From contig SHLQ01000012.1 of the NCBI GenBank assembly GCA_004282895.1, forward strand, positions 1 to 33,214: DNA of 33,214 nt, given 5' to 3'. Source of the stretch: Acidimicrobiales bacterium (GTDB lineage Bacteria > Actinomycetota > Acidimicrobiia > Acidimicrobiales > SHLQ01). Positions 462 to 19,370 of the stretch are shown piece after piece; position 1 is the first letter of the stretch; each line of letters opens with the position of its first letter. The notes below the pieces were generated by a model, which saw only the letters and a list, made by a program, of their open reading frames with translations, was not told the origin of the DNA and ran no database searches. The position numbers were made by a program, and so were the translations under genes.

Positions 462-1160
462 TCAGTCGTCGATCCAATCGACGCCGAGATCAACCAGACG
501 ATCGCGCAAGCCGTAGAAGTCCACGCCCAGCTCCCCCGCCTCGAGCCGAGCACGCGTCGCCTCCTCTTTGGCGAGGCGTTCGTTCGAGCGATCGAGGGCC
601 CATTCCGCCTCTTCACGTGCAACGACAACAACGCCATCATCGTCGGCACATATGACATCACCGGGGCTGATGGCGACGCCACCCAACGTCACCGGAACGT
701 TGACCGACCCTGGGGTCGCCTTGACGGTTCCTTGCACCGAGACATGTCTCGTCCATACCGGGAAACCCATCGCGCGCAGGTCGGCAGTGTCACGGACGGC
801 CGCGTCAATCACGAGCCCTCTGACACCCCGCGTTATGAGCGAGGTCGCAAGCAGATCACCGAACATGCCATGTGTCGATGGCGCTGTTGTTGCAACGACC
901 AGCACGTCCCCTGGCTGACAAACCTCGACCGCGGCGTGGATCATCATGTTGTCGCCGGGATGGCTCAGCACCGTGACCGCCGTACCCCCGACCTTCACAT
1001 CCTGCTGAATGGGGTGAAGGTCGACCCCAAGAGAGCCCCGTCGCCCGATCGCTTCGTGCACGGTTGCGGTTCCGACCGCGCCGAGCTTCTCGGCCACCTC
1101 GGATGGTGCGCGCTCGATGGTCCGCACGACCACATGGCGACCTTTGGCGTTCGGGTTCAT
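462..1160 (-). CDS. ligK: 4-carboxy-4-hydroxy-2-oxoadipate aldolase / oxaloacetate decarboxylase (RraA-like fold)
   Basis: MNPNAKGRHVVVRTIERAPSEVAEKLGAVGTATVHEAIGRRGSLGVDLHPIQQ...GDNMMIHAAVEVCQPGDVLVV...GDLLATSLITRGVRGLVIDAAVRDTADLRAMGFPVW; family-typical G-x20-R-D region; adjacent to ligJ/ligC. The 435-aa ORF extends upstream falsely into ligJ. Confidence 0.88.
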   Translation of the reverse strand: MNPNAKGRHVVVRTIERAPSEVAEKLGAVGTATVHEAIGRRGSLGVDLHPIQQDVKVGGTAVTVLSHPGDNMMIHAAVEVCQPGDVLVVATTAPSTHGMFGDLLATSLITRGVRGLVIDAAVRDTADLRAMGFPVWTRHVSVQGTVKATPGSVNVPVTLGGVAISPGDVICADDDGVVVVAREEAEWALDRSNERLAKEEATRARLEAGELGVDFYGLRDRLVDLGVDWIDD

Positions 1161-2167
1161 GACAGCTCCAATCGGGGGAAGACTCGTCGCGTGTTGTCTT
1201 CGAACACCTGCTGTTTGGCGGCATCGTCCAGCGCGCAGTTGTCGACGTAGATCTTCGTGTCGTCGTAGTAGTTCCCGGTCTCCGGGTCGACGCCCCGCAC
1301 CGCGCCCACCATCTCCGAGGCGAAGAGGATGTTCTCGGTGGGCACCACGTCGACCAGCAGATCGATGCCGGGCTGATGATACACACAGGTGTCGAACCAG
1401 ATGTGATCCATGAGTCCGTCGAAGTCCCAGCCCTTGTCCTCCGCCATTCCTTTGAACCGGCCCCAGTGATAGGGAACCGCTCCCCCGCCGTGCGGGATGA
1501 TCCAGCGCAGATTTGGATACTCCGCCATGAAGCCGGAGCTGAGCGCTTGCATGAATGCGGTCGTGTCCGCACCCAGGTAGTGGGAGCCCGTGGTGAAAAA
1601 GTTGTCGTTGCAGGCGGCAGAGACGTGGATCATCGCCGGCACATCGAGCTCGCACATCTTCTCCCACAGTGGCCGCCAGTAGTCCTCCCACAGAGGGGGC
1701 CCATTCCAGTGGCCACCCGACGGGTCGGGGTTGACATTGCAGCCGATGAAGCCCATCTCCGTCACACACCGCTCGAGCTCTGCGACGGAGGTGTCGATAC
1801 TCGTGCCGGGTGACTGCGGCAACTGACAGACCGGCGCGAAGTTGTCCGGGTAGAGATCACAAACCCGGCGAATCAGTTCGTTCTGATGCTCGGACCAGAA
1901 CCGTGACGTGTGTTCGTTGCCAATGTGATGTGCCATCCACGAAGCTCGAGGCGAGAAGATCGTCAGATCGGCACCACGCTCACGCTGCAACCGCAACTGG
2001 TTGGTCTCGATGCTCTCCCGAATCTCGTCGTCGCTGACGACGATCGAACCCTTCTCACCGACGAAGGCTGGATCTGCTTCGACCGCGGCTTTCTGCGCCT
2101 CACGCCATTCGCCGACGCCGGGCGGAGTCGTCGTGTAGTGACCGTGACAATCGATGATGCGAGACAT
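1157..2167 (-). CDS. ligJ: 4-oxalomesaconate hydratase (amidohydrolase family)
   Basis: 336 aa MSRIIDCHGHYTTTPPGVGEWREAQ...IIPHGGGAVPYHWGRFKGMAEDKGW...ENILFASEMVGAVRGVDPETGNYYDDTKIYVD; overlaps ligK start by 4 bp. Confidence 0.9.
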   Translation of the reverse strand: MSRIIDCHGHYTTTPPGVGEWREAQKAAVEADPAFVGEKGSIVVSDDEIRESIETNQLRLQRERGADLTIFSPRASWMAHHIGNEHTSRFWSEHQNELIRRVCDLYPDNFAPVCQLPQSPGTSIDTSVAELERCVTEMGFIGCNVNPDPSGGHWNGPPLWEDYWRPLWEKMCELDVPAMIHVSAACNDNFFTTGSHYLGADTTAFMQALSSGFMAEYPNLRWIIPHGGGAVPYHWGRFKGMAEDKGWDFDGLMDHIWFDTCVYHQPGIDLLVDVVPTENILFASEMVGAVRGVDPETGNYYDDTKIYVDNCALDDAAKQQVFEDNTRRVFPRLELS

Positions 2168-2173
2168 CGCTCC

Positions 2174-3118
2174 TCAGTTCTCTAGTTGCTGCTCGAGCTT
2201 GTGCAGCCATTCGTAACAACTCATCACCTGTTGAACGGAGCTGTTGGGTTCGCGGCCCTCGTTGATCGCGGAGATGAACTCCCTGTCCTGCAACTCGATG
2301 CCGTTCATCGAAACGGCGACCTGAGACACGTCGATGACCTCATCCCGACCAGTGATCAGGTCGTCGTACCGGGCGAGGTAGGTACCCGTGTCGCCGATGT
2401 AGCGGAAGAACGTGCCGAGCGGCCCATCGTTGTTGAACGAAAGCGACAGGGTGAGGATTGCTCCCACGCTGGTCTTCATCTGGATCGACATGTCCATGGC
2501 GATGCCGAGGTCGGGATGGTGCGGTCCTTCCAGCACATTGGCGGCAACGATCTCGCCACCGGTCTGGTACGCGAACAGATCAACCGTGTGGGCCGCGTGA
2601 TGCCAGAGGAGGTGGTCGGTCCAGGAGCGGGCCTCGCCCTTGGCGTTCGAGTTGGTGCGGCGGAAGAAGTAGGTCTGCACATCCATCTGCTGAATGTTGA
2701 AGTCGCCGGCCTGGATCTTGTTGTGAACCCACTGATGAGAGGGGTTGAACCGGCGGGTGTGCCCGACCATGCAGGTGAGACCGGTACGTTCCTGTGTGGC
2801 GAGCACCGCCTCCGCATCGGCGAGAGTATCGGCGAGCGGGATCTCCACCTCGACGTGTTTGCCGGCCTCCATGCAGGCGATGGCCTGGGCGGCGTGCATC
2901 TGGGTGGGCGTGGCGAGGATCACGGCCTCCACCTCGTCGTTGGCGAGAACGTCGTCGAGCTCGGTCGCCCAGTGGGCGATGTCGTGTTCGGCGGCGTACG
3001 CCTCGGTGCGATCCGGCGTTCGGCCGAATACGGAAACCACCTCGGCACCGTCGATGTTGGCGATCCCGTCGAGGTGTTTGGTGGCGAATGCGCCCGTTCC
3101 GCCGAGTGCAATCTTCAT
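2174..3118 (-). CDS. ligC: 4-carboxy-2-hydroxymuconate-6-semialdehyde dehydrogenase (Gfo/Idh/MocA family)
   Basis: MKIALGGTGAFATKHLDGIANIDGAEVVSVFGRTPDR...MVGHTRRFNPSHQWVHNKI...WHHAAHTVDLFAYQTG; start preferred over the longer ORF because it has a GGAGGA Shine-Dalgarno-like sequence just upstream. Confidence 0.88.
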   Translation of the reverse strand: MKIALGGTGAFATKHLDGIANIDGAEVVSVFGRTPDRTEAYAAEHDIAHWATELDDVLANDEVEAVILATPTQMHAAQAIACMEAGKHVEVEIPLADTLADAEAVLATQERTGLTCMVGHTRRFNPSHQWVHNKIQAGDFNIQQMDVQTYFFRRTNSNAKGEARSWTDHLLWHHAAHTVDLFAYQTGGEIVAANVLEGPHHPDLGIAMDMSIQMKTSVGAILTLSLSFNNDGPLGTFFRYIGDTGTYLARYDDLITGRDEVIDVSQVAVSMNGIELQDREFISAINEGREPNSSVQQVMSCYEWLHKLEQQLEN

Positions 3119-3139
3119 CCAGTTCCTCCGCAGCAGTGA

Positions 3140-3159
3140 TGTCAACAGGATCGTTGACA
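3140..3159. promoter_or_regulatory. Perfect inverted repeat TGTCAAC-N6-GTTGACA in divergent ligC/ligU promoter; candidate operator
   Basis: Direct read: tgtcaac aggatc gttgaca; 7-bp perfect arms in the 63-bp intergenic region between divergent genes. Confidence 0.6.
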
Positions 3160-3181
3160 ATCTGAACACTACACTGCGGCC

Positions 3182-4248: not shown

Positions 4249-5169
4249 ATGGCAACCACCAACCCTCCCCACGACTTTCCGTTGGACAGAACCGTGCCCG
4301 GGCCGCGCCCGGAGGCCAGCTCCCCGCAGGTCGTTACGCCTCCACCTTTGGCCTGCGATGCGCATTGTCATGTATTCGGCCCGGCGGACCGGTTCCCGTT
4401 CTCCCCGACGCGTACCTACACGCCGCCCGACTCGGGCATCACGGACTTCGAACTGCTTCAGGAGCGTCTGGGTCTGGAACGGGCGGTTTTCGTCCAGGCA
4501 AGCTGTCATGGCACAGACAACTCGGCCATGATCGACGCCATCCAGCGGGGTGCAGGTCGATACGCCGGCGTAGCCATGATCGACGACTCGTTCACGGACG
4601 ACGACTTGGCGTACTTGCACGAAAACCGCGTACGGGGCACCCGGTTCAACTTCGTTGCCCATCTCGGTGGCGCGCCTGACATGGACACGTTCTGGCGCCT
4701 CGTCCATCGGGTGGCACCTCTGGGCTGGCACATCGTTCTCCACCTCGATGCAAAGGACTTCGGCACATACAGCTCGGTGCTCGACAACATGCCCGTGCCC
4801 TACATCATCGACCACATGGCCCGGGTCCCGGCCGTGGATGGGCTCGACCAGGAGCCGTTGCAGTTGTTACTGGACCGCATGTCGACCGACGAACGCTGCT
4901 GGGTGAAGATCAGCTGCGCCGAACGACTGACCGAGGGCCGCATCGCTCCCTACGACGACGTGATTCCCATTGCTCAGGCCGTTGTCGCGGCTGCACCAGA
5001 CAGGGTGCTGTGGGGCACCGACTGGCCGCACCCAAATCTGGTGGACATGCCGGATGAGGGGGCGCTGCTCGACCTGCTCGCCGAGTATGTGCCCGACGAA
5101 GCGCTCCGAAATCAGATCCTCGTGGACAACCCGGCGGTGCTATACAGCTTTGAGGATGGGCAGCCGTAG
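4249..5169 (+). CDS. ligI: 2-pyrone-4,6-dicarboxylate hydrolase (amidohydrolase)
   Basis: From ATG 4249: MATTNPPHDFPLDRTVPGPRPE...CDAHCHVFGPADRFPFSPTRTYTPPD...RVLWGTDWPHPNL; typical LigI. The 596-aa ORF from 3379 is a spurious upstream extension. Confidence 0.88.
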   Translation: MATTNPPHDFPLDRTVPGPRPEASSPQVVTPPPLACDAHCHVFGPADRFPFSPTRTYTPPDSGITDFELLQERLGLERAVFVQASCHGTDNSAMIDAIQRGAGRYAGVAMIDDSFTDDDLAYLHENRVRGTRFNFVAHLGGAPDMDTFWRLVHRVAPLGWHIVLHLDAKDFGTYSSVLDNMPVPYIIDHMARVPAVDGLDQEPLQLLLDRMSTDERCWVKISCAERLTEGRIAPYDDVIPIAQAVVAAAPDRVLWGTDWPHPNLVDMPDEGALLDLLAEYVPDEALRNQILVDNPAVLYSFEDGQP

Positions 5170-5796
5170 ATGATGGATCTCGTTACCGACGAACTCCGCA
5201 GCGACATTCTTGTCGGGCGCTTCGAGCCTGGCGACCGCCTGCTCGAGATGCCCCTGGCCGAACAGTACGAGTGTGGCCGAGCGGCGGTGCGATCTGCCCT
5301 GGTCGCTCTTACATCTGAGGGCCTTGTCGATCGGGCGGCGAATCGCGGCGCAACCGTTCGTCGCATCTCGGTCGCAGAGGCGATTCAGATCACCGAGGCC
5401 CGCTCCGCACTCGAGGGCTTGATTGCCGCCGAGGCTGCCCGACACGCAACTGCGGCCGACCACAAAGAACTCAGATCAATCATCGCCAAGATGCGCGACT
5501 CGGTCGGCACCGAAGGCGCCAAGGAATACTCCCGTCTCAACGGACTGCTGCACCGCCGACTGTGCGAGATGAGCAAGCACGAAATCGCTGCCGAGCTTGT
5601 CGCCAACCTCCGAAATCGGGCCGCCCATCACCAGTATCGCCTGGCGATCATGCCCGGCAGAGCCGAGGAATCTCTCGAGCAGCACGCGGCGATCGTCACT
5701 GCCGTCGTCGCCGGGGATCCCACTGGAGCGGCCAAGGCGATGCACACCCATCTGCATTCCGTAATCGATGTCTTGACCCGCTGGGGGGACGCATGA
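5170..5796 (+). CDS. GntR-family (FCD domain) transcriptional regulator
   Basis: MMDLVTDELRSDILVGRFEPGDRLLEMPLAEQYECGRAAVRSALVALTSEGLVDRAANRGATVRRISVAEAIQITEARSALEG; N-terminal wHTH plus helical FCD; immediately follows ligI. Confidence 0.87.
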   Translation: MMDLVTDELRSDILVGRFEPGDRLLEMPLAEQYECGRAAVRSALVALTSEGLVDRAANRGATVRRISVAEAIQITEARSALEGLIAAEAARHATAADHKELRSIIAKMRDSVGTEGAKEYSRLNGLLHRRLCEMSKHEIAAELVANLRNRAAHHQYRLAIMPGRAEESLEQHAAIVTAVVAGDPTGAAKAMHTHLHSVIDVLTRWGDA

Positions 5797-5827: not shown

Positions 5828-7324
5828 ATGAAGTCTGAAACGAACCTATTCATCGCTGGAGCTTGGACTCCCGCGGCCAACGAAGCCGTGTTCGAGAATC
5901 TCAATCCCGCCACCGAGGAAGTGTGGGCGTCGGTGGCCGACGCAGATGCATCCGATGCGGACCGGGCGATCGACGCCGCCGCCGAAGCACAGCCGGCGTG
6001 GGAAGCGCTGGGATCCACCGGCCGGGCAGAGGTGCTGATGCGGGTATCTGCAGCGATCGATGAGCATCGTGACGAGCTCGTCGATGGACTGATTGCCGAA
6101 GTCGGTTCCGTGAGGATGAAGGCCGGCGCCGAGACGTTTGCCTCCGCTGGATACATAGCGGCCGCGATCGATGCCGCCGCGACCATTGAGCCCGTCGAGC
6201 TTCCTTCGAATATGGGCAAGCGAAATCTGATCGTTCGTAAACCCGTCGGTGTTGTTTCGGTGATTTCTCCTTGGAACGTTCCGCTTGCGCTCTCCATGAG
6301 AGCAATCTCCTACGCACTCGCCCTCGGTAACACCGTGGTCGTCAAACCGAGCGAGGAGTCCCCTGTATCCGGCGGACTGGCGATAGCGCGCTTGTTCGAA
6401 GCTGCCGGCGCACCCCCTGGAGTCCTCAATGTGGTGACGTGTTCGCGAGACAACGTCGGCAGCGTTGGCAACCGCCTGGTCGATCACCCGGCAGTTGGTG
6501 CGATCAGCTTCACGGGCTCGGAGCGGGTGGGACGGCTTCTCGCGGCTCAAGCTGGGCAACAGCTCAAGAAGATCGATCTCGAACTCGGCGGGAGCGACGC
6601 ACAAATCATTCTGGCCGACGCTGACCTCGACGGAGCGGTGGATGCGGCCACATTCGGTGCTTTCAATCACGCCGGCCAGATCTGCATGTCAACGAAACGA
6701 ATTGTGGTCGAAGAACCCGTTGCCGACGAGTTCATTGCCAGGTTCGCCGAACGGGCAGGTGGCCTCGCCTATGGCTCCCCATACGAGGCCACTACCGTCG
6801 TCGGCCCGATCATCAACCGTGGCCAACTCGATCAACTCCAGGCCGCGGTCGATGATGCGCAGGCGAAAGGCGCCCGGGTACTCGTCGGTGGCACGAGCGA
6901 AGGAACCTGCTTTCCTCCAACCGTGCTCGTCGATGTGACGCCGGAGATGATCGCCTACGGCACAGAACTGTTCGGTCCTGTGCGCGTGGTTCATGTGGCC
7001 GCCGATTCCGAAGATGCGCTTCGCATCGCAAATGACAGCAAGTACGGATTGTCCGGCTCGATTTGGACGGCCGACATCGACCGCGGGTTGGCCATGGCCG
7101 ATCGGTTCGAGACCGGAATGGTCCACATCAACGGAACAACTCTCGCGGCCGAGCCCCACGTCCCGTTCGGCGGGATCAAGGCCAGCGGCATGGGACGACA
7201 TTGTGGAGAGGGCTCGATCGAGGCATTCACCGAGACGCGGTGGCATTCCGTCCAAACATCGCCCGGCCAAGTCCCGCCGCCCTTCGCCGCCAAAACATCA
7301 CCAGAACCAGGGCAGGAATCATGA
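5828..7324 (+). CDS. NAD(P)-dependent aldehyde dehydrogenase, probably aromatic (benzaldehyde/vanillin-type)
   Basis: 498 aa with ISPWNVPLALSMRAI, ELGGSDAQIILADADLDGAVDAATFGAFNHAGQICMSTKRI (catalytic Glu/Cys), PFGGIKASGMGR; ATGA overlap with pobA. Confidence 0.85.
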   Translation: MKSETNLFIAGAWTPAANEAVFENLNPATEEVWASVADADASDADRAIDAAAEAQPAWEALGSTGRAEVLMRVSAAIDEHRDELVDGLIAEVGSVRMKAGAETFASAGYIAAAIDAAATIEPVELPSNMGKRNLIVRKPVGVVSVISPWNVPLALSMRAISYALALGNTVVVKPSEESPVSGGLAIARLFEAAGAPPGVLNVVTCSRDNVGSVGNRLVDHPAVGAISFTGSERVGRLLAAQAGQQLKKIDLELGGSDAQIILADADLDGAVDAATFGAFNHAGQICMSTKRIVVEEPVADEFIARFAERAGGLAYGSPYEATTVVGPIINRGQLDQLQAAVDDAQAKGARVLVGGTSEGTCFPPTVLVDVTPEMIAYGTELFGPVRVVHVAADSEDALRIANDSKYGLSGSIWTADIDRGLAMADRFETGMVHINGTTLAAEPHVPFGGIKASGMGRHCGEGSIEAFTETRWHSVQTSPGQVPPPFAAKTSPEPGQES

Positions 7325-8490
7325 AGACCCAAGTCGCCATTGTCGGAGCTGGCCCCGCGGGGACACTTCTCTCGCTGATTCTGAAGCAGAGAGGCATCGA
7401 TTCCGTCGTTATCGAAAGGCAGACGAAGGACTACGTGCTGGGACGAATCCGCGCGGGTGTGCTCGAGTGGACGAGCGTGGAGATTCTTCGAGCGGCCGGG
7501 ATCGGTGACCGACTCGACGCCGAGGGACACCGGCACGACAGCGTGAAGATCTCCTGGCGGGCACAGGACATCCTCTCGATCGACTTCGAGCGACTCACCG
7601 GCAAGCCCATGATGTCTTATGGCCAGACGAAGGTTCAGGAAGACCTCTACGCGGCGGCCGAACGTGAAGGCATCAACATTGTGTTCGGAGCGTCCGACGT
7701 CGAAATCCATGACGTCACGACCAACAGTCCGTCCATTTCCTGCGTCGTCGATGGCGAACAGGAACGCATCGAATGTGACTACGTGGCCGGCTGCGACGGA
7801 CAACACGGGGTGAGTCGCCGCACGATCCCGTCCGAGCTGAAGTCGGAGTTCGAGATGTCATACCCGTTTGGGTGGCTCGGCATCCTCTCCGAAACGCCGC
7901 CGCTCCCCTACCTCATCTACGCCAACCACGAGAACGGCTTCGCTCTCTGCTCGGAACGAAACCCGATGCTGAGCCGGTACTACGTGCAGTGCCCGCTCGA
8001 AGACACGGTCGAGGACTGGTCCGACGATCGGTTCTGGTCTGAGCTGACAGAGCGGCTCCCGTCATCGGTCGCATCAGAGTTGGTCACCGGCCCCTCGATC
8101 GAGAAGTCGATCGCCCCGTTGCGTAGCTACGTCGTCGAACCAATGCAGTACGGCCGCATGTTCCTCGCCGGCGATGCAGCACACATCGTTCCCCCGACGG
8201 GCGCCAAGGGCTTGAACCTGGCGATCGCGGACGTGCACTACCTCTCGGAGGCCTTCGATGCCCACTACGGCGGCGGCGACTCCACAAAGCTCGACGGCTA
8301 TTCGGAGACCGCGCTGCGCCGCGTCTGGTCCTCGGTCCGGTTCTCCTGGTGGATGACAGTGCTGTTGCACCGCTTCCCGGACCAGACGCCGTTCGAACAG
8401 CGCATGCGCGAGGAAGACCTCGCCTATCTCACCCGTTCCGAAGCCGCGCAACGCTCGGTGGCCGAACAATACGTAGGACTGGACCTCTGA
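7321..8490 (+). CDS. pobA: 4-hydroxybenzoate 3-monooxygenase (FAD)
   Basis: MKTQVAIVGAGPAGTLLSLILKQRGIDSVVIERQTKDYVLGRIRAGVLEWTSVEILRAAG...MFLAGDAAHIVPPTGAKGLNLAIADVHYLSEAF; GxGxxG, GD and DG motifs typical of PobA. Confidence 0.93.
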   Translation: MKTQVAIVGAGPAGTLLSLILKQRGIDSVVIERQTKDYVLGRIRAGVLEWTSVEILRAAGIGDRLDAEGHRHDSVKISWRAQDILSIDFERLTGKPMMSYGQTKVQEDLYAAAEREGINIVFGASDVEIHDVTTNSPSISCVVDGEQERIECDYVAGCDGQHGVSRRTIPSELKSEFEMSYPFGWLGILSETPPLPYLIYANHENGFALCSERNPMLSRYYVQCPLEDTVEDWSDDRFWSELTERLPSSVASELVTGPSIEKSIAPLRSYVVEPMQYGRMFLAGDAAHIVPPTGAKGLNLAIADVHYLSEAFDAHYGGGDSTKLDGYSETALRRVWSSVRFSWWMTVLLHRFPDQTPFEQRMREEDLAYLTRSEAAQRSVAEQYVGLDL

Positions 8491-8918
8491 TGGGACTTGA
8501 CAAGCCATATTTGGACATACCCGGCACGACGATTTTCGACACTGATCAGGCCGCCATTGGCTATCACCTGAACATGTTCGCGATGTCGTTGAGGGATGCC
8601 TCGAACCGGGAACGGTTCAAGGACGATGAGCGGGCCTTCCTCGACGAGTGGCCCATGACCGAAGACCAGAAGCAGGCGGTCATGGACCGCGATCTGAACC
8701 GGATCCTCGAGCTCGGAGGCAACATCTATTTCTGCGCCAAGATCGGCGCCGTCGACGGGCAGAACTATGTCGAAATCGTGAGTTCGATGACGGAAAACAA
8801 CGCCGATGAACACCGGCAGATGATGATCGACGGTGGGCGATCGCCAGAAGGCAACCGGTACGTGCACGAATGGGAAGACGGCGGCCCCGCCGCCCGCAAA
8901 GCTCGAGGAGAGAACTAA
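8490..8918 (+). CDS. ligA: Protocatechuate 4,5-dioxygenase alpha subunit
   Basis: MGLDKPYLDIPGTTIFDTDQAAIGYHLNMFAMSLRDASNRERFKDDERAFLDEWPMTEDQKQAVMDRDLNRILELGGNIYFCAKIGAVDG; LigA family; TGATG overlap with pobA. Confidence 0.92.
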   Translation: MGLDKPYLDIPGTTIFDTDQAAIGYHLNMFAMSLRDASNRERFKDDERAFLDEWPMTEDQKQAVMDRDLNRILELGGNIYFCAKIGAVDGQNYVEIVSSMTENNADEHRQMMIDGGRSPEGNRYVHEWEDGGPAARKARGEN

Positions 8919-9775
8919 TGGCTCGGATTACCGCTTCTGCGTACATGTCGCACGTGCCCTTGATCGGCGTGGCCGTCGACAAGGGCCTGACCGGCGACGA
9001 GTACTTCAAGCCGTTGTTCGACGGTTTCGAGCCCGGTCGCGAGTGGGCGGCGGCCAATGTGCCAGATGTCGTCGTCCTCGTCTTCAACGACCATGCCAAC
9101 GCCTTCGGACTCGACATAGTGCCCACGTTCGCGCTCGGTATGTCCGAGACGTTCGAGCCAGCTGATGAGGGCTGGGGCGCCCGCCCGGTGCCTACCGTCG
9201 AAGGCCACCCTGCACTCGCCGCCCATATCGCTCACTCGGTCATCCGCGAGGACTTCGACCTGACTCTGGTCAACAACATCCCCGTCGACCACGGATGCAC
9301 CGTGCCGTTGTCGGTCATGTATGGCCAACCCGAAGCGTGGCCGTGCAAGGTGATCCCCTTGTTCGTCAACGTCGTGCAGTACCCCATCCCGTCGGGCAAG
9401 CGCTGCCTCGAGCTGGGCAAGGCGATCCGGAGGGCAGTCGACGGCTTCGACGAGGACCTCAACGTGCATATCTGGGGAACGGGCGGAATGAGCCACCAGC
9501 TGCAGGGCCAGCGCGCCGGCCTGATCAACCAACCGTGGGACAAGGAGTTCTTCGAGCGCATGATCAACGACCCCGAGGACCTCGCGACGATGGAGCACGT
9601 CGAGTACGTGCGCGAAGGTGGCTCGGAGGGTATCGAGCTGGTGATGTGGCTCGTCGCCCGAGGGGCGATGTCCGATCTGGCTGGTGGTCACCCACCGAGC
9701 GAGGAACACCGGCACTACCACGTGCCCGCCAGCAACACGGCCGTCGGTCAACTCATCCTAGAAGACCCGAACTAG
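8918..9775 (+). CDS. ligB: Protocatechuate 4,5-dioxygenase beta subunit (extradiol, class III)
   Basis: MARITASAYMSHVPLIGVAVDKGLTGDEYFKPLFDGFEPGREW...VLVFNDHANAFGLDIVPTFALG...NNIPVDHGCTVPLSVMYG...WGTGGMSHQLQGQRAGLIN; LigB active-site His/Glu context; TAATG overlap with ligA. Confidence 0.93.
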   Translation: MARITASAYMSHVPLIGVAVDKGLTGDEYFKPLFDGFEPGREWAAANVPDVVVLVFNDHANAFGLDIVPTFALGMSETFEPADEGWGARPVPTVEGHPALAAHIAHSVIREDFDLTLVNNIPVDHGCTVPLSVMYGQPEAWPCKVIPLFVNVVQYPIPSGKRCLELGKAIRRAVDGFDEDLNVHIWGTGGMSHQLQGQRAGLINQPWDKEFFERMINDPEDLATMEHVEYVREGGSEGIELVMWLVARGAMSDLAGGHPPSEEHRHYHVPASNTAVGQLILEDPN

Positions 9776-9777
9776 CT

Positions 9778-10491
9778 GTGACCCCGACGGAGTTCCTCCT
9801 CGTCTCCGTCCTGTCGATGCTCGGTGCGACCGCACAAGGCGCGATCGGGATCGGCTATGGCCTCGTGGCCGGCGCGGGTCTGGTCGCGATCGATCCAGCC
9901 TTCGTGCCGGGTCCGCTGCTCATCATCGGAGTCGTCGTTGGCTGCCGGCATATCGTGGTCGAACGCGACCACCTCGACCTCCCCGCATGGAAGCGCTGCA
10001 TGCTGGGACTCCCGGTCGGTCTAATCGCCGGAATCAGCGTGCTCGAGGCAATGGATGATCGGACGCTCGGTCTTGCGGTTGGCGCAGCGATCGCGCTTGC
10101 AGCGGTGGCCCTGCTGGCTGGTGTCACGGTGAAGCGGACACCCGCGATCGAAGTTGCGACCGGTGCTGGTTCCGCCTTTGCGGCGGTCACTGCAAGTCTT
10201 CCCGGCCCTCCGTTCGTTGTTGCCTTCAGCGATCTTCGCCCGGCCGCCATGCGAGCCACCTCCGCTTCGTTTCTGGTCGCTCTGACAGTGCTTTCGTTCT
10301 TTAGTCTCGTGGCGACCGGCAACTTCGCCCGCGACGAGTTCGAGCTGCTCGCGCTCATGCTTCCGGGCACGGTAGCGGGCCTGTTCGTATCCCGGTTCGT
10401 GCGCCCGCATCTCGAGAGCCAGTGGTTTCGGCCGCTGATCCTGATCATCGCGGGAATCGGCGGAATCGCACTCATCATTCGAAATCTGTGA
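9778..10491 (+). CDS. TSUP (TauE/SafE) family membrane permease
   Basis: GTG start right after ligB stop; VTPTEFLLVSVLSMLGATAQGAIGIGYGLVAGAGLVAIDPAFVPGPLLIIGVVVGCRHIV...GLFVSRFVRPHLESQWFRPLILIIAGIGGIALIIRNL; about 8 hydrophobic segments, TSUP-like. Confidence 0.75.
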   Translation: MTPTEFLLVSVLSMLGATAQGAIGIGYGLVAGAGLVAIDPAFVPGPLLIIGVVVGCRHIVVERDHLDLPAWKRCMLGLPVGLIAGISVLEAMDDRTLGLAVGAAIALAAVALLAGVTVKRTPAIEVATGAGSAFAAVTASLPGPPFVVAFSDLRPAAMRATSASFLVALTVLSFFSLVATGNFARDEFELLALMLPGTVAGLFVSRFVRPHLESQWFRPLILIIAGIGGIALIIRNL

Positions 10492-10512: not shown

Positions 10513-11274
10513 ATGGACATCAGCGGTAAGAACATCATCGTGACCGGAGGCGCATCCGGCATCGGAAAGGGCATGTGCGAACGTTTCGCTTCGCTGGGCG
10601 CAGCCAACGTTGTCGTCGCCGACCGCGACCTCGACGGAGCCACAGCGGTCGCGGAAGCAATCGGTGGCGCTGCTCGAATGTGTGATGTCACCGACGACGC
10701 GTCGGTTGCAGCGCTCGTCGCCGACACCATCGCCGATGTCGGACACATCGACTTCTTCTTCGCAAACGCCGGTGTCGGTGCTGGGGGCGGCGTCGACGTC
10801 TCGGACGAGCTCTGGGATCTGAGTTGGCAAGTAAACGTCATGGGCCCGGCGATCGCGGCCCGACACGTCATTCCGCACATGGAATCGCAGGGTCAGGGCA
10901 CGTTCGTCGTTACGGCCTCTGCCGCAGGTCTCACGACCGGGCCGGTTTCGTTCAACTATGCGGTGAGCAAGCATGCCGCCATCGGCGTCGCGGAGTGGCT
11001 CGCGATCAACCACGGCCCCGCTATCACCGTGCAGGCAATTTGTCCGACGATCGTTGACACGCCGATGGCCGCCGATTTCGGCGAGGTCATGTTCCAAGCG
11101 CTGTCCGTCGACGACGTTGTCGATTCCGTCGTCGCCGGCATCGAGGCAGGCACGTTCATCATCGCGCCGAACGAGCAGCCGATGGCGATGTTCCAGGCCA
11201 AGGCCAGCGACTGGGATGGATTCCTTGGGAACCTGCAGAAGATGGTTGCGTCGATGAAACCCGGCGAATCGTGA
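10513..11274 (+). CDS. Short-chain dehydrogenase/reductase
   Basis: MDISGKNIIVTGGASGIGKGMCERFASLG...FFFANAGVGAGGGV...NYAVSKHAAIGVAEWLA; TGxxxGIG and YxxxK motifs. Confidence 0.9.
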   Translation: MDISGKNIIVTGGASGIGKGMCERFASLGAANVVVADRDLDGATAVAEAIGGAARMCDVTDDASVAALVADTIADVGHIDFFFANAGVGAGGGVDVSDELWDLSWQVNVMGPAIAARHVIPHMESQGQGTFVVTASAAGLTTGPVSFNYAVSKHAAIGVAEWLAINHGPAITVQAICPTIVDTPMAADFGEVMFQALSVDDVVDSVVAGIEAGTFIIAPNEQPMAMFQAKASDWDGFLGNLQKMVASMKPGES

Positions 11275-12581
11275 CCGAGTCCGATGTTTCGGGGCAGCCG
11301 AAACTCGAAGCAACCCGAAGGGTTGCCAGTAGCTGTCCGTTTCACACGACTCCCGAGCAGGCGGCGCTTTCGAAGGATTTCGACGCGTTTACGTTTATGG
11401 CCAATCCCCACCCAATTCTTGCGCGGGCCCGCCAAGAGGCACCGGTGTTCTACGACGAGGAAACCGACTATTGGGTGGTGACCGCATACGACTCGGTTCG
11501 GAGCTTGCTCGGTCAACCGGAGCGATTCTCGTCGGACATCGCCCTCGATCCGATGTTCCCGTTTGACCCGGCCGTGCCAGAGGTCCTCACCGAGGGTGAG
11601 TTCGGTGCCCGCCCCTTCATTCTCAATATCGATGGCGAGGAACACAGCGAACACAAACGCATCATGTCCAAGGTGCTGCACCCTCGGGCCGTTGCCGATC
11701 GCGAGGACGACATCCGGCTGATCGCCCGACGCCTGATCAGCTCGCTGCCCGACGACGAGTCGTTCGACTTCGTCGAACGCTTTTCGATGGTATTTCCGGC
11801 GCTCGTGATCTTCATGTTCTTGGGTCTGCCTGAGGAAGTCGTCAGCGATGTGAACAGATGGGCCGACGCGAGAATGGAGTTGTTCTTCGGTGAGCTTCCT
11901 CTGGAACAGCAGGCGGACGAGGCCCGTGGCATGGTCGAGTTCTGGCAGTTCATCGAACGCCACATTGACGAACAGATCGACGATCCTGGGGACCACTTCG
12001 TCGGCGATCTCATACGTCTTCTGCTGAGCGGCGAGGAGGAGATCACTCGCAACGACATCGCGAACTACTGCTGGACGTTCCTGTTTGCCGGGCACGAGAC
12101 GACGACGTCGCAGATCACCAACATGGTCAGCGACCTGCTCCTCCAGCGAGAAGCGTGGGACGCCGTTGTCGCTGACTCCGGCCTCATCAATCCCGCCGTG
12201 GAGGAAAGCCTGAGAATGAACACGTCGGTGTTCAACCTGCGTCGCCGTGTGACGGAGGAGGTCACGATCGACGGCGTCACAATCCCCGCCGATTCGAAGG
12301 TGTTCGTGGTGAGTGGCGGTGCAAACCGAGATGTCGCAGAGTTCGAGGACCCTGATCACTTCACGATCGGCCGCGACAACGCGCGCCGGCACCTCGGCTT
12401 CGGATTTGGCGAACACTTCTGCGTCGGTGCGGGCCTCGCGCGTCTTCAGTTGCGGGTGGTACTGCAGGAGTTGACCGCAGCGATGCCAGATCTCGCCCTA
12501 GTGGATGGCGCGGAGCGGCGCTTTATCAACAACGCATTCTTCTGCGCCCCGCGAACTCTGTGGCTCGAACGCAAGGCCTGA
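11271..12581 (+). CDS. Cytochrome P450
   Basis: GTG start overlapping SDR stop; AGHETTTSQI (I-helix), EESLRM (ExxR), FGFGEHFCVGAGLARLQLR (heme Cys). Confidence 0.93.
   Translation: MTESDVSGQPKLEATRRVASSCPFHTTPEQAALSKDFDAFTFMANPHPILARARQEAPVFYDEETDYWVVTAYDSVRSLLGQPERFSSDIALDPMFPFDPAVPEVLTEGEFGARPFILNIDGEEHSEHKRIMSKVLHPRAVADREDDIRLIARRLISSLPDDESFDFVERFSMVFPALVIFMFLGLPEEVVSDVNRWADARMELFFGELPLEQQADEARGMVEFWQFIERHIDEQIDDPGDHFVGDLIRLLLSGEEEITRNDIANYCWTFLFAGHETTTSQITNMVSDLLLQREAWDAVVADSGLINPAVEESLRMNTSVFNLRRRVTEEVTIDGVTIPADSKVFVVSGGANRDVAEFEDPDHFTIGRDNARRHLGFGFGEHFCVGAGLARLQLRVVLQELTAAMPDLALVDGAERRFINNAFFCAPRTLWLERKA
11283..11327 (+). repeat. Copy 1 of 45-nt palindrome-containing repeat, inside P450 5' coding region
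   Basis: gatgtttcggggcagccgaaactcgaagcaacccgaagggttgcc; 40/45 identical to 32893-32937; stem GCAACCC-GAA-GGGTTGC. Confidence 0.8.
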
Positions 12582-12608: not shown

Positions 12609-13523
12609 ATGAAGTTCTCCGTTTGGCCCAGTCCTGCTCGCCCCACTGATGAGGTCCTCGAGTTGGCCCGTGCTGTCGATTCGCTGGGTTACTACGGGTT
12701 CTGGTTCGCAGATCACTACATGCCGAACACCGGAAGTGAGGACCTGGAGCCTGGGGATGTCCATGAGGTGTGGTCCGTGCTACCAGCCGTGGCTGCCGTC
12801 ACCGAGTCGATTCGCGTCGGTTCACTGGTGTCGCCAACCTCGGTCCACCATCCGGCGATGTTGGCCAATCGCGCCGCCACCCTCGACCATATTTCCCACG
12901 GTCGCATGGTGCTCGGTCTGGGCGCGGGCTGGCAGATCAACGAGCACAAGGTGTACGGAATTCCACTGGAGCCTCCGAAGGAGCGGGTGGATCGCTTCGA
13001 GGAAGCCATTCAGATCATTCGCTCGCTCCTCGACGAAGACCGCACCACGTTCCAGGGGGCGTACTACACGATCACGGATGCACCGTCGGATCCGAGTCCG
13101 GTGCAGCCAACGTTGCCGATTCTCGTCGGAACCGGTGGACCACGTATGTGTCGTATCACCGCTCGTCATGCCCAGGAGTGGAACACCTGGGGAGCACCGG
13201 AGATGGCTGCCGGCGCGGTCGAGACCTTCACCTCCGCCTGCGAGAAGGTCGGCGTCGACCCGGCCACGAAACACACCTCTGTCCAAGCCCTGTTCGTGCT
13301 CACTGACGATCAGGAGCGAATCGACAAGGCGTTGGCTGGTCCAATGGGCAACCGCTCCCTCGCCGGCTCCGATGATCACATCATCGACGCGATCGGCCAA
13401 TACGAGGAGCTGGGATTCGACGAAGTCATCGTCCCCGACTTCACACTCGGCAAGACGGCCGACGAGCGTCGTGACACGTATGCCCGCATCATGGCCGACA
13501 TCGTGCCCAACTACTCAGGGTGA
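12609..13523 (+). CDS. LLM-class (F420-type luciferase-like) oxidoreductase
   Basis: MKFSVWPSPARPTDEVLELARAVDSLGYYGFWFADHYMPNTG...LVSPTSVHHPAMLANRAATLDHISHGRMVLGLGAGWQINEHKVYGIPLEPPKERVDRFEEAIQIIRSLL; LLM/F420 family signature. Confidence 0.88.
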   Translation: MKFSVWPSPARPTDEVLELARAVDSLGYYGFWFADHYMPNTGSEDLEPGDVHEVWSVLPAVAAVTESIRVGSLVSPTSVHHPAMLANRAATLDHISHGRMVLGLGAGWQINEHKVYGIPLEPPKERVDRFEEAIQIIRSLLDEDRTTFQGAYYTITDAPSDPSPVQPTLPILVGTGGPRMCRITARHAQEWNTWGAPEMAAGAVETFTSACEKVGVDPATKHTSVQALFVLTDDQERIDKALAGPMGNRSLAGSDDHIIDAIGQYEELGFDEVIVPDFTLGKTADERRDTYARIMADIVPNYSG

Positions 13524-13541: not shown

Positions 13542-15635
13542 CTAGCTGCTGCCCCGGCCGACCCGCCGCCGGGCTGACGCTGGAGACTCCGCCTGCTCAC
13601 CGCGGACGATCGCCTCCTTGCGGAGCAGTTTGACCGGCACTCCCTGGTTGTCGCCGGCCGGCAGCACCTCGGGCGGATACAGCGCGATCTTCTGCTTGTC
13701 CGCTATTCGGCCGCCGTCCATGTCCAGTTCGCGGGCGTTGGTGCCCTTCGTCGGTAGAACGGTGCGACCTTCGACGAACTCGAGATCCCACCACCATTTC
13801 TTGATGGGATTGATCGAGCCGTTGCCGACACGGTCATCGAGGTTGGCAATGAACTTGCGGGTGAATGGAAGCTTGATCGCCGACCACAGGAAAACCCGTT
13901 CGGAAAGCACACCCTCGATGTTGTACGGGCACGTCTTCATGCAGCGGCCGCACGCAGAACCTTTGAGATTGCCAAGTCGGTACTTGGTGCATTTCTCGAC
14001 ATCCGGCTTCCACATCTCATACCCGTTGAACATGATCTTGTCGCCAAAGGAAATGGCACCACACGGACACTCCCGCGCACATTTGGTGCATTTGTTGCAG
14101 AAGTCCTGAAGACCGAAGTCGATTTGCTGATCGGGTGTCAGGGGCATGTCGGTCGTGAGCACCACCGATTTGAACCTGGGGCCGACGAACGGGTTGAGCA
14201 CCAGCTCACCGATCCGGCTGAGCTCACCCAGCCCGGCTTCGAGCACAAGTGGGATGTGCAGCACCTCGGAGTCGCGATTGGTGTGGCTGCGTGCGCCGTA
14301 ACCGAGGGAGCGCAAATGCTCGGCCATGATTCCCGCAATCTGCGCCCCTCGCATGTACGCCCGCATCGACTGCGCACCCGACACCCAGTCGTCACCGCTT
14401 GCGCCTTCCATCGTCTCGTACCCCTGATCGAGCAGGATCACGACGCCGTATTTGTGGCGCGGTGTGATCTCCTCACCGGCGCCATTGTGGGAGTACCAGG
14501 CGTACTCGGGCACCTCACACACCCCGACCATGTCACCCCCCAGGTGGTAGGCGAGCGCCTTGAGCGCATCGGCGTTGCGATCCGGGTCGTCGTTTCCCGG
14601 AGCGACCTCGGGCGCGACCTCGCCGTCCTGATACGGAACCATCTCACCGATCTGCTGGATGTAGGCCTGAGCCTGCGGTGTCTTGTAGGAGAACACCTTC
14701 ACGTCTTTCTGGAACTTGGGACCCATGTCGCCGTGGGCGGCTCGGGGAAAGCCGCCGGCGCGCACGGGCACGCGCTTGACCTCATCGGGGATGATGAGCG
14801 TTGTTGCTTCCGGAACACGCTTGATCCGTTCCATCGGATATCGGCCCATGTGCAAGGGCCGGTGATCGCCGTTCAGTCGCCCGATACCCGCTCTTGTACC
14901 GCCTCGACCGAGCATCCAGCCAAGCGACCGAGTGGAACGGAGCTTGTCGAGCAACCCGCGTCGAGCGAGCGGCGGGTCAGCGGCGAGGGCCATATCCGTG
15001 GTGACCGCCGCCAGTGCGAAACCACCACTCAGGTATGGCGCGCGAAGCTCACCGTGAATCGACTCGATCAATCCGCTCTGCAACGCCAGTTGCTCGACGT
15101 CAACGTCCGACGCGGTAGGCGTGTGGGCCATCGCGTCGAATCCGAGGCGACGGATATATCCCGCGGTGAGGACGGCAAGCTCCGCGGCGCGAAGGTCGGC
15201 GTTAATCTGCCGCGTGCCGTCGATCCACTCGTCGCCGGGCTGGTTCTCACCGACGATTCGAGTGTGGGCGATGAGTACAACCACCGCATGGGCGTGGCCA
15301 GGGTGCGTCTCCACCGACCATGCGCTGTCTGGAATTGAGCCGCATCCGGCCATGTCCGCATCCAGGAAGTACAACCCGGCCTTGAGGTGTTCCGCCCGAG
15401 CAAGGGGGTCATCCGGTGCCGGCGACTCCTCAGCCACGTCCCCGGTGCGTTGGTCGTCGAACATGTCGGCATAGAGCTGATACGCATGCCCGGCGTTCTG
15501 AGGCCCGGCAACGCGAGATTCCTCGCGTCGTCGGCCGCTCGACGTCGATACCGTCGTGTCCTCGAGCCTCGGAAGCCGTTCGAGCGGGTACGGGCCGAGG
15601 TGCACGGCTCGGTCACGATGTGAGAACAGTTTCAT
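13542..15635 (-). CDS. Reductive dehalogenase homologue, cytosolic (no Tat signal), with internally duplicated cobalamin/nitroreductase-like domain and C-terminal 2x[4Fe-4S]
   Basis: 697 aa; GLGELSRIGELVLNPFVGPRFKSVVLTTDMPLTPDQQIDFGLQDFCNKCTKCARECPCGAISFGDK followed by KCTKYRLGNLKGSACGRCMKTCPYN: two CxxCxxCxxxCP-type clusters and an RdhA core. N-terminal half (HLGPYPLERLPRLEDTT...) resembles the C-terminal half (HMGRYPMERIKRVPEATT...). Confidence 0.85.
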   Translation of the reverse strand: MKLFSHRDRAVHLGPYPLERLPRLEDTTVSTSSGRRREESRVAGPQNAGHAYQLYADMFDDQRTGDVAEESPAPDDPLARAEHLKAGLYFLDADMAGCGSIPDSAWSVETHPGHAHAVVVLIAHTRIVGENQPGDEWIDGTRQINADLRAAELAVLTAGYIRRLGFDAMAHTPTASDVDVEQLALQSGLIESIHGELRAPYLSGGFALAAVTTDMALAADPPLARRGLLDKLRSTRSLGWMLGRGGTRAGIGRLNGDHRPLHMGRYPMERIKRVPEATTLIIPDEVKRVPVRAGGFPRAAHGDMGPKFQKDVKVFSYKTPQAQAYIQQIGEMVPYQDGEVAPEVAPGNDDPDRNADALKALAYHLGGDMVGVCEVPEYAWYSHNGAGEEITPRHKYGVVILLDQGYETMEGASGDDWVSGAQSMRAYMRGAQIAGIMAEHLRSLGYGARSHTNRDSEVLHIPLVLEAGLGELSRIGELVLNPFVGPRFKSVVLTTDMPLTPDQQIDFGLQDFCNKCTKCARECPCGAISFGDKIMFNGYEMWKPDVEKCTKYRLGNLKGSACGRCMKTCPYNIEGVLSERVFLWSAIKLPFTRKFIANLDDRVGNGSINPIKKWWWDLEFVEGRTVLPTKGTNARELDMDGGRIADKQKIALYPPEVLPAGDNQGVPVKLLRKEAIVRGEQAESPASARRRVGRGSS

Positions 15636-15718: not shown

Positions 15719-16285
15719 TCACTCGACTTGTCCGTTGAACCCGGGACGGCCAGGTGGGAGACCGAGGCCAAAGGTGTTCGCGAACATACTCACCATTGTG
15801 TAGTGCCCAAAGAAAATGACGAGTTCGAGCATCGTTTCCTCGGACCACTGGCGTCGCAAGACATCCCATGCGGTCGTCGGAACCATGGCATTGCTCATGA
15901 GGCCGTCGGTCGCAGCGAGAAGTGCCTGGGACCATTCATCCCACCCGTCAGTAATCGAATCGACTTTGACGCGCTGGCAGTCGGCTTCACTCCACCCAGC
16001 ATCGATCGCCTGCTGATAGTGCTGGCCCCACTCGAACTCGGAGTTGTAGCGCCACGCCATCCGCAAGATCATCAGCTCGCGATCCTTCGCCGGGAGGACC
16101 GTGTCTCGGTTGGCGAACGAACCAACCGCCTTGAGCCGACGTAGGGCGTCGGGGTGTCGGGCCATCAGTTGGAACAGGCTCAGTTGCGCCTGTTGTTCGG
16201 TGATCAACGAACGTTGTTCTTCATTCATATCGTCGGGTGCCACGAGCCTGATTCGAGGCTCGCTCAGCCGCTCATCGGCGCTCAC
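15719..16285 (-). CDS. Carboxymuconolactone decarboxylase / AhpD-like family protein
   Basis: MSADERLSEPRIRLVAPDDMNEEQRSLITEQQAQLSLFQLMARHPDALRRLKAVGSFANRDTVLPAKDRELMILRMAWRYNSEFEWGQHYQQAIDAG; CMD family. GTG start at 16285 overlaps the upstream SDR stop. Confidence 0.8.
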   Translation of the reverse strand: MSADERLSEPRIRLVAPDDMNEEQRSLITEQQAQLSLFQLMARHPDALRRLKAVGSFANRDTVLPAKDRELMILRMAWRYNSEFEWGQHYQQAIDAGWSEADCQRVKVDSITDGWDEWSQALLAATDGLMSNAMVPTTAWDVLRRQWSEETMLELVIFFGHYTMVSMFANTFGLGLPPGRPGFNGQVE

Positions 16286-17034
16286 AAGATCATCCCCCCA
16301 TCGAGCGGCATAGCAACGCCGGTGACCCACCCCGCCTCTTCCGCAGCGAAATAGGCGATGGCTGCGGCCACGTCCTCGGGAAGTCCGGTCCGGCCGAGTG
16401 GGACCATGGATTCGACTCTTGCTCGGAGCTCGGGGTCGGCGAAGGAGACCGCGGCGAGCGGAGTCTCGACGATCCCAGGGCATAGACAGTTGACTCGGAT
16501 GCCATCGGCGGCGTACTCGACGGCGGCTGTCTTCGTGAGGCCGACGACCCCGAATTTGGCCGCGTGATACGCGCTACCGGCGATCGGTCCGCCTTTAAGA
16601 CCGGCGATAGATGAGATGTTGATTATGCTCCCGCCGCCCTGTCCGAGCATCGCGGGGATCTCGTACTTCATGGACAACCACACACCAGTGAGGTCGACGT
16701 CGATCACCTTGCGGAAGTACTCCTCGTCCATCTCGTGGGCGCGGACCATCTGGCCGCCGATGCCAGCGTTGTTGACCGCGATGTCGAGCCGGCCGAAGGT
16801 CTCTAGCGTTTCCACGACCATTTGCTCGGTGTCAGCCGAGACCGCCACGTCTCCTTGGACGAAGTGCGCTCGCACACCCGCGTCTTCGAGCACGGTAACG
16901 GCAGTCGCGCCTGGTTCGGCTCGTCGCCCGGTGATGACGACAGCGGCACCCTCGGTACCCAGTCGCAAAGCGGCGTCGAAGCCAATTCCCTCGGTGCCGC
17001 CCGTGATCAGGGCGACCTTTCCTTCATGGCGCAT
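16282..17034 (-). CDS. Short-chain dehydrogenase/reductase
   Basis: MRHEGKVALITGGTEGIGFDAALRLGTEGAAVVITGRR...NNAGIGGQM...SSIAGLKGGPIAGSAYHAAKFGVVGLTKTAAVEYAADGIRVNCLCPGIVETPL. Confidence 0.92.
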   Translation of the reverse strand: MRHEGKVALITGGTEGIGFDAALRLGTEGAAVVITGRRAEPGATAVTVLEDAGVRAHFVQGDVAVSADTEQMVVETLETFGRLDIAVNNAGIGGQMVRAHEMDEEYFRKVIDVDLTGVWLSMKYEIPAMLGQGGGSIINISSIAGLKGGPIAGSAYHAAKFGVVGLTKTAAVEYAADGIRVNCLCPGIVETPLAAVSFADPELRARVESMVPLGRTGLPEDVAAAIAYFAAEEAGWVTGVAMPLDGGMIL

Positions 17035-17136: not shown

Positions 17137-18309
17137 TCAGAACTTGTAGAAGGTCGTGTCTCGATGGAACTCGATCCACGACCGCACGAACTGCTGATGG
17201 CACTGAATCGTGCGCAGTTCTTTGCCCTCAAGTGCACCCGCGGTACATCGGCCGAACTTGTCCCAGGACGATTGGGTTTGCACGTCCGTAAATCCGTCGC
17301 CTGCCCTTTCAAACTCAAGCTTCTGTCCGTCGATCGTGCGGTCGTAGGCAAACGGTGAGAATCCCTCCGTATCAGCGAAAACCAGGAGCGGAATGGCTCC
17401 GACTTCGTCATGGATTGGGTCCGACTTCTTCAACTCCTCGAAGTCGTACGCTCGAGCGTGGTCGCCGACTTCAAGACCGAGCACGAGCCGGGGCAGGTCT
17501 TGCATCATCCAGCCGGGGAAGCTGACCTCGTAGTCCAGCATCTTCTCGTGCCAGTGGTACACGTCGATCCACTGCGGGTCGTACTGCAGGACCTTGGAGT
17601 CGGGATACTTATTGAGCCAATTGCCGAGGCTCATATGTTCGTGCGGTACATCGGCAAGTATTCGGCCAGCGAGCGGGCCCTTCACGGCCTCGCCGGTTTC
17701 CTGTCGCCACCACGACCCGGTCTGGTTGTCTTGAAAAACCGCGTTGTAGGTCACTGCGCCGACAAGGAAGAAGTCGAGCGTCGTGCCATCGAGGTCGAGG
17801 TCGTACACACGGGCACTCCGGCACAACCCGCAATAGGTGAACCACATCGGGCGACCGCCGACCTCATCGGGAACCTGGTGGTGATGGTCGATGACGGTCG
17901 CTGGGATCGCTTTCTGCTCGCCGTTGTGGTCAACACCAACGACCTGCACCGAGAGATCGATGGTGTTCTCGGCTGCGGTCACGAAAAGTCTGCTTTCGAG
18001 CTTCGGGAACTTGAGCCGGCCCACCCAGAACCGGTTGAACAGCCAATAGATCCCGAACCAAAGGGCGAGAAGGCAAATGCTCAGAATAATTAGGCCCGGC
18101 CGGTCGCCCAAGGGCACCTGGGCACCCACCACAATCAGCGCCACGGCGAGGACGATTCGAATTCTGGCGATGTTCGACCACATGAAGTAGGCCAGGTCCA
18201 TCTGACGCGAGAACCCCTGAAGCACCGGCGGGGTGCCGTTGGCGCTCAAACCCTTCGTCAACTCGGCGACGATCAGCACGGCGAGCAGAACAACGAAGAG
18301 TGAAGTCAC
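17137..18309 (-). CDS. DUF3179-type membrane-anchored protein
   Basis: N-terminal hydrophobic segments (MTSLFVVLLAVLIVAELTKG..., IRIVLAVALIVVGAQV, LIILSICLLALWFGIYWLF); PATVIDHHHQVPDEVGGRPMWFTYCGLCRSARVYD...FLVGAVTYNAVFQDNQTGSWWRQETGEAVKGPLAG resembles DUF3179. Confidence 0.75.
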   Translation of the reverse strand: MTSLFVVLLAVLIVAELTKGLSANGTPPVLQGFSRQMDLAYFMWSNIARIRIVLAVALIVVGAQVPLGDRPGLIILSICLLALWFGIYWLFNRFWVGRLKFPKLESRLFVTAAENTIDLSVQVVGVDHNGEQKAIPATVIDHHHQVPDEVGGRPMWFTYCGLCRSARVYDLDLDGTTLDFFLVGAVTYNAVFQDNQTGSWWRQETGEAVKGPLAGRILADVPHEHMSLGNWLNKYPDSKVLQYDPQWIDVYHWHEKMLDYEVSFPGWMMQDLPRLVLGLEVGDHARAYDFEELKKSDPIHDEVGAIPLLVFADTEGFSPFAYDRTIDGQKLEFERAGDGFTDVQTQSSWDKFGRCTAGALEGKELRTIQCHQQFVRSWIEFHRDTTFYKF

Positions 18310-18383: not shown

Positions 18384-19370
18384 ATGAAGACTCTCGATGC
18401 GAAGCTTGCCGCCCTCAAAGAACAGCCAGGCGGCAACGATTTCATCATCTGCTACGCCGCTGACCCGGACATGGGCGGCGGCCTCCGTCCCACGATCGGC
18501 GCCGGCACCATTCCTGACCGCTGGCGTGACGAGATGGCGGAAATCACCGAGAAGGGTGACATCGACATTCTCCTCGCCTCGGTGTCGACCATGGACGTCC
18601 TTGCTCGCGAGCGTGGGGTCTTCCTCGACTCTCCGGTTACCCCGGCGATTCGCGCCAACGACACGAGCGATATTTGGATGGTCCGAGGTGGCACGTATTC
18701 GTCGCATCCGAGCCGCCCCTTTGCCACCACGACGGTGAAAGAGGCCATGTACGGCACGCTTCACCCAGACCCCGATCAAGCGATCGATGTGCCGCTCGGA
18801 CTGTGGTCGATCACCTTCAACAACGACCTCGAGGCCGATGAGCGCTCGCTCTTGCGCTACCGCGACTTCCGAGCTGAGGCGGCGGCAGAAGGCTTCCGGC
18901 ACTTCGTCGAGGTCTTCAATCCCAACGTTGCTGACCCTGGCATTCAGGGTCCAGTTGGCGACTACGTCAACGACTGCATCGCCCGGATGCTGGCCGGCGT
19001 GCCACGGGCGAGCCGACCCGAGTTCTTGAAGGTGGGCTACAACGGGCCCCAGGCGTTGGAGGATCTTTCGGCCGGCCTGGACGTGACCGTGGGGGTGCTC
19101 GGCGGTCCACCAAGCACGTCGAACGATTCGTTTACCTTCATCCGCGACGTCAAGAAGTACGGCGGCCGCGTTGCCTTGTTCGGACGTCGCATCAAGGTCT
19201 CCGATTCCCCGATCATCTTCACGGAACTGCTGCGTCGCGTAGCCGAGAGCGAACTGAACCCAGAAGAAGCCACACGCGAATACCACGGCCGACTGGCCGA
19301 CGCCGGAATCACCCCATCCCGTTCGCTCGAAGATGACCTCGTCATCGAAACGCCGGAACTCCTCCTCTAA
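18384..19370 (+). CDS. Putative TIM-barrel aldolase-like protein
   Basis: 328 aa MKTLDAKLAALKEQPGGNDFIICYAADPDMGGG...HFVEVFNPN...LKVGYNGPQALEDLSAGLDVTVGVLGGPPSTSNDSFTFIRDVKKYGGRVALFGRRIK; barrel-like alternation and gene context with a sugar dehydrogenase and FGGY kinase. Family assignment is tentative. Confidence 0.5.
   Translation: MKTLDAKLAALKEQPGGNDFIICYAADPDMGGGLRPTIGAGTIPDRWRDEMAEITEKGDIDILLASVSTMDVLARERGVFLDSPVTPAIRANDTSDIWMVRGGTYSSHPSRPFATTTVKEAMYGTLHPDPDQAIDVPLGLWSITFNNDLEADERSLLRYRDFRAEAAAEGFRHFVEVFNPNVADPGIQGPVGDYVNDCIARMLAGVPRASRPEFLKVGYNGPQALEDLSAGLDVTVGVLGGPPSTSNDSFTFIRDVKKYGGRVALFGRRIKVSDSPIIFTELLRRVAESELNPEEATREYHGRLADAGITPSRSLEDDLVIETPELLL

Follow-up and report, generated by a model that had tools for sequence, protein, structure and literature searches.

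Sequence comparison and structure prediction support the assignment of an rdhA gene in an Acidimicrobiales bacterium (contig SHLQ01000012.1, of which the whole analysed stretch of 33,214 nucleotides is referred to here as the window) to the catabolic reductive dehalogenases of the NpRdhA type that lack a reductase domain, a kind of enzyme for which proteobacterial examples are known. The joint explanation that we favor, and consider likely, is that RdhA is a cytosolic, probably oxygen-tolerant dehalogenase of the NpRdhA kind, the product of which enters protocatechuate cleavage through PobA and LigAB; that is, RdhA probably removes bromine or chlorine from aromatic compounds, and the neighboring genes would use the ring as food. 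In the open-access literature searched, every catabolic duplicated RdhA mentioned by name is proteobacterial, and NpRdhA-type enzymes were not found to be reported from Acidimicrobiia. The locus and some forty homologs place intact enzymes of this kind in Acidimicrobiia, a large, little-described lineage of actinobacteria, here beside genes for taking 4-hydroxybenzoate through to ring cleavage, and they provide new, probably oxygen-tolerant candidate enzymes together with an operon-based substrate prediction. The gene and its predicted domains are as follows.

13542–15635, minus strand: rdhA, NpRdhA-type catabolic reductive dehalogenase by the assignment above, 697 aa, ATG start
14877–15635, minus strand: vestigial copy of the cobalamin-binding domain, RdhA residues ~1–253 (hhalign and BLASTP of the halves; boundary approximate)
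13842–14876, minus strand: catalytic cobalamin/2x[4Fe-4S] domain, residues ~254–598, with Ser423, Tyr427, Lys489, and Arg553 (boundary approximate)

A ribosome-binding-like sequence, GAGGGGG, lies just 5′ of the rdhA start codon. A first-pass annotation of this DNA had described the N-terminal half of the protein as parallel to the C-terminal half, and a comparison of the halves bears this out: they align by BLASTP with 32% identity over 244 residues (E 8e-29) and, profile against profile, with a probability of 100% (E 1e-42, compared with 0.09–0.7 for column-shuffled controls), and the motif pairs that it quoted sit on these alignments. The N-terminal half contains a single cysteine (C98) and no cysteine motifs, whereas the C-terminal half contains C513-C516-C519-C523 and C549/C562-C565-C569 and matches Pfam Fer4_7 above its cut-off, so that both the two ferredoxin-type [4Fe-4S] motifs and their absence from the N-terminal copy had been read correctly. 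The catalytic residues are also missing from this copy, which carries Asp147 at the position of Tyr427 and Ala207 at that of Lys489, two positions that are variable across the RdhA family. The N-terminal copy would bind no cofactor and may replace the second subunit of the dimeric respiratory RdhAs. No twin-arginine Tat motif was seen when the N-terminus (MKLFSHRDRAVHLGPY) was read by eye, as had been stated before, and RdhA, which ends at 697 aa, has no Pfam match to a C-terminal reductase domain. The earlier description of the gene proved correct in every point that could be checked.

RdhA aligns over its full length with the crystallized NpRdhA (50% identity, E 1e-204) and scores 181 bits with TIGR02486, the curated model of the reductive dehalogenase family, above the cut-off of 160. 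An AlphaFold model built from 60 family sequences (pLDDT 88.8, pTM 0.92) superposes on NpRdhA (6zxx/4ras) with a TM-score of 0.95 over ~700 residues; the best score against PceA is ~0.37, and that against QueG is 0.2. These matches confirm the RdhA core and NpRdhA architecture that the first-pass annotation had recognized, and the catalytic Ser, Tyr, Lys, and Arg are present. The duplicated, vestigial cobalamin domain at the N-terminus is a feature of catabolic RdhAs as defined in PMC10463259, and RdhA displays the catabolic features described in PMC7565698. That RdhA might instead be a respiratory, membrane-linked terminal reductase of organohalide respiration is very improbable; it shares its catalytic domain with PceA, but the absent Tat motif, the vestigial duplicated domain, the adjacent catabolic operon, and the far closer structural resemblance to NpRdhA led us to reject this reading. 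Still more improbable is a QueG epoxyqueuosine reductase, or a different B12/Fe-S reductase that does not dehalogenate. A distant homology to QueG is detectable (PDB match, E 0.0015), but the QueG model TIGR00276 gives only 18.6 bits against a cut-off of 200, the fold differs, the same genome contains a separate QueG-like gene (L004), and long, well-supported branches divide the RdhA sequences from the QueG-like protein. The two objections that the first-pass annotation had anticipated, loss of the catalytic Tyr or basic residue and a placement with QueG, were both examined; the residues are present and RdhA groups elsewhere.

To place RdhA phylogenetically, one genome per species was scanned, which yielded 462 encoded relatives; a tree of the catalytic domain was inferred by a quick search with SH-aLRT support only. 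Among the best 80 of the 462 relatives, rdhA falls into a clade of 39 Acidimicrobiia sequences (support 99%), and the inner 32 of these (support 99%), including rdhA, form a group with an altered pocket. The 39-member clade is nested among Pseudomonadota, Rokubacteria, and another group of Acidimicrobiia, and NpRdhA belongs to a separate proteobacterial group. Most of the single-domain RdhA-like proteins lie outside, as does the QueG-like protein; two or three single-domain sequences have very long branches and an unsure exact position. Two single-domain RdhA-like genes are found on other contigs of the same genome (L002 1195–2355, 386 aa; L003 1003–2208, 401 aa); the former matches PF13486 and has cluster motifs like those of the Roseobacter debrominase Ros_A3X954 (PMC13101508). 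Frame-broken homologs were considered and dismissed, since the one TGA that had raised this suspicion in two relatives is the natural stop at the gene end.

In NpRdhA, K488, R552, and S422 bind the substrate hydroxyl, and the proton is proposed to come from Y426 (PMC7565698). The equivalents of S422/Y426/K488/R552 in RdhA are S423/Y427/K489/R553, which are invariant in all homologs compared. By analogy with NpRdhA, an ortho-halogenated phenol would be positioned above the cobalamin with its phenolate bound by Lys489, Arg553, and Ser423, the two [4Fe-4S] clusters with which the protein is presumably loaded would deliver electrons from a reductant encoded elsewhere, and the halogen would depart via a cobalt-halide adduct while Tyr427 gives a proton. 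The pocket differs from that of NpRdhA at four positions: F290 corresponds to Gly295, K307 to Val312, P311 to Ser316, and A419 to Gly420. Glycine at NpRdhA position 419 is common throughout the family; by contrast, glycine at position 290 is found in all 32 members of the inner Acidimicrobiia clade and only there, and valine at position 307 in 30 of them. Judging from the altered residues F290G, K307V, and P311S, the exact substrate of RdhA may therefore differ from that of NpRdhA. The loss of K307 does not, however, exclude a hydroxybenzoate, because the salt bridge reported between K307 and the carboxylate of the substrate occurs in a pose at the entrance of the pocket and not in the productive pose.

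The genes around rdhA, some of them named by domain and context, are the following.

1157–2167, minus strand: amidohydrolase, LigJ/LigI-like by context (PF04909)
2174–3169, minus strand: GFO/IDH/MocA dehydrogenase with OxRdtase_C domain, LigC-like by context (PF19858, PF01408)
4249–5169, plus strand: amidohydrolase, LigI/LigJ-like by context (PF04909)
5170–5796, plus strand: GntR/FCD regulator, operon head (PF07729, PF00392)
5828–7324, plus strand: aldehyde dehydrogenase, overlapping the pobA start (PF00171, 503 bits)
7321–8490, plus strand: pobA, 4-hydroxybenzoate 3-monooxygenase (TIGR02360, 583 bits, cut-off 539; PDB PHBH, E 1e-143)
8490–8918, plus strand: ligA, protocatechuate 4,5-dioxygenase alpha, start overlapping the pobA stop (TIGR02792, 164 bits, cut-off 109)
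8918–9775, plus strand: ligB, class III extradiol dioxygenase beta (protocatechuate 4,5-dioxygenase), overlapping ligA (NF009903, 490 bits, cut-off 317)
9778–10491, plus strand: TauE/SafE-family membrane transporter, after ligB (PF01925)
10513–11274, plus strand: SDR dehydrogenase
11271–12581, plus strand: cytochrome P450, overlapping the SDR stop
12609–13523, plus strand: LLM-class (F420-type) oxidoreductase, convergent with rdhA
15719–16483, minus strand: carboxymuconolactone decarboxylase-like (CMD), upstream of rdhA (PF02627, 34 bits); true start probably downstream of the ORF start
16282–17034, minus strand: SDR dehydrogenase, upstream of the CMD gene, on the strand of rdhA

The genes for GntR, aldehyde dehydrogenase, PobA, LigA, LigB, and TauE form a packed operon, in which the starts and stops of aldehyde dehydrogenase and PobA, of PobA and LigA, and of LigA and LigB overlap; the operon, which the first-pass annotation did not include, lies ~5 kb from rdhA on the opposite strand. 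For the two amidohydrolases and the GFO/IDH dehydrogenase, the match to LigI/LigJ/LigC is one of domain and position only, and the nearest NCBIfam model of the amidohydrolase at 4249–5169 is 4-sulfomuconolactone hydrolase (252 bits, below cut-off). This arrangement suggests that the substrate of RdhA is a halogenated 4-hydroxybenzoate-like phenol, which would be ortho-dehalogenated aerobically in the cytosol. The product, most likely 4-hydroxybenzoate, would be converted to protocatechuate by the neighboring PobA, and LigA/LigB would open the ring at 4,5; by feeding PobA/LigAB in this way, RdhA would thus serve the carbon catabolism of a halogenated aromatic compound, not respiration. A motif scan of the window revealed no ferredoxin, and no reductase was seen among the genes scanned. 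The window contains no cobalamin riboswitch and no tRNA; in the genome, which is 85% complete, CobS and CbiC homologs were not found and a CobO-type adenosyltransferase is present. Upstream of the SDR-CMD-rdhA group lie a DUF3179 membrane protein (17137–18309) and a 328-aa protein without Pfam match (18384–19370), of which a homolog with 78% identity in L025 is conserved with an ADH and an FGGY kinase beside rdhA.

NpRdhA of Nitratireductor pacificus pht-3B (PDB 4RAS, 6ZXU, 6ZXX) resembles RdhA in length, domain order, the vestigial N-terminal copy, the two [4Fe-4S] motifs, the Ser/Tyr/Lys/Arg active site, and the absence of both a Tat signal and a reductase domain. RdhA differs from it in the pocket (F290G, K307V, P311S, and A419G), in its location beside pobA-ligAB, and in its actinobacterial host; moreover, ferredoxin and ferredoxin-reductase genes are reported to adjoin the NpRdhA gene (PMC10463259), whereas none is seen near RdhA. 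BhbA of Comamonas sp. 7D-2 (plasmid pBHB) is likewise a duplicated catabolic RdhA beside PobA, LigA, and LigB, and is reported to convert 3,5-dibromo-4-hydroxybenzoate to 4-hydroxybenzoate (PMC13101508). It is 41% identical to RdhA, is plasmid-borne in a betaproteobacterium, and, at 1071 aa, carries a C-terminal domain like phthalate dioxygenase reductase that RdhA lacks; the first-pass annotation rightly named NpRdhA and BhbA as duplicated kin but overlooked this domain. On pBHB, PobA (64%), LigA, LigB (55%), and BhbA are encoded within ~6 kb, and the cluster is reported to encode the degradation of bromoxynil to 4-carboxy-2-hydroxymuconate-6-semialdehyde (PMC10463259). Because pBHB contains the same PobA-LigA-LigB set, the present locus is best read as an actinobacterial counterpart of the BhbA cluster without the fused reductase. 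For the position of the pBHB homolog of PobA (L104 11848–12657; 64% identity across 270 residues), the plasmid table has no gene entry. JtRdhA of Jhaorihella thermophila is by description a similar catabolic duplicated RdhA, acting on ortho-bromo and ortho-iodo phenols (PMC10463259), although it is self-sufficient through a fused reductase. T7RdhA/A6RdhA, members of the reductive dehalogenase family also attributed to Acidimicrobiaceae, are described as PceA-like (PMC10008544), which sets them apart from RdhA.

Of 11 genomes with both rdhA and pobA, 7 carry the two genes no more than 15 kb apart; their order varies, and one of the cases is a Pseudomonadota contig. This compares with a chance expectation of ~0.75% per genome (P ~4e-13, ignoring kinship). 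Similarly, LigB-like genes are present in 14 of 16 RdhA-bearing draft genomes and in 1 of 15 drafts of relatives without full-length RdhA (Fisher P 7e-6, ignoring kinship). Of the RdhA-bearing genomes checked, about one in three has no PobA homolog at E <= 1e-60, and most homologous rdhA loci have neighbors other than pobA-lig; therefore, protocatechuate cleavage is not the sole context. An enzyme of the same kind may act on another ortho-halogenated phenol, such as a bromophenol, a halogenated hydroxyphenylacetate, or a larger natural product, with PobA-LigAB as a general 4-hydroxybenzoate pathway next to it by chance. This alternative, which we regard as possible but rather unlikely, would suit the clade-wide pocket changes, the differing neighborhoods of other clade members, and the range of brominated phenols taken by related catabolic RdhAs (PMC10463259), and sulfatase genes beside some rdhA loci hint at aryl sulfates. 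That the pobA linkage recurs although the gene order changes, and is also present in the pBHB cluster, which has been studied by experiment, argues against this alternative and for a dehalogenase that feeds PobA and LigAB.

Sulfatase genes are located beside rdhA in several relatives (L024 13335–14894; L042 8293–9921 and L077 12197–13768, in the latter two directly adjacent or nearly so), and one is present in the window at 31284–32873; as a substrate clue they were set aside, since their enrichment is roughly three-fold over background at best. It is tempting to speculate, though with considerable doubt, that the 32-member Acidimicrobiia clade forms a lineage of aerobic reductive dehalogenases with a function apart and a natural halogenated substrate of its own, in which case uncultured actinobacteria would be a sizeable, unrecognized sink of natural organohalogens. 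The ten-member subclade L037–L048, with L065, has other conserved neighbors (an alpha/beta hydrolase, an MFS transporter, an mpaB/rubber-oxygenase-like protein, and a transglutaminase), and the substrate context may therefore differ there.
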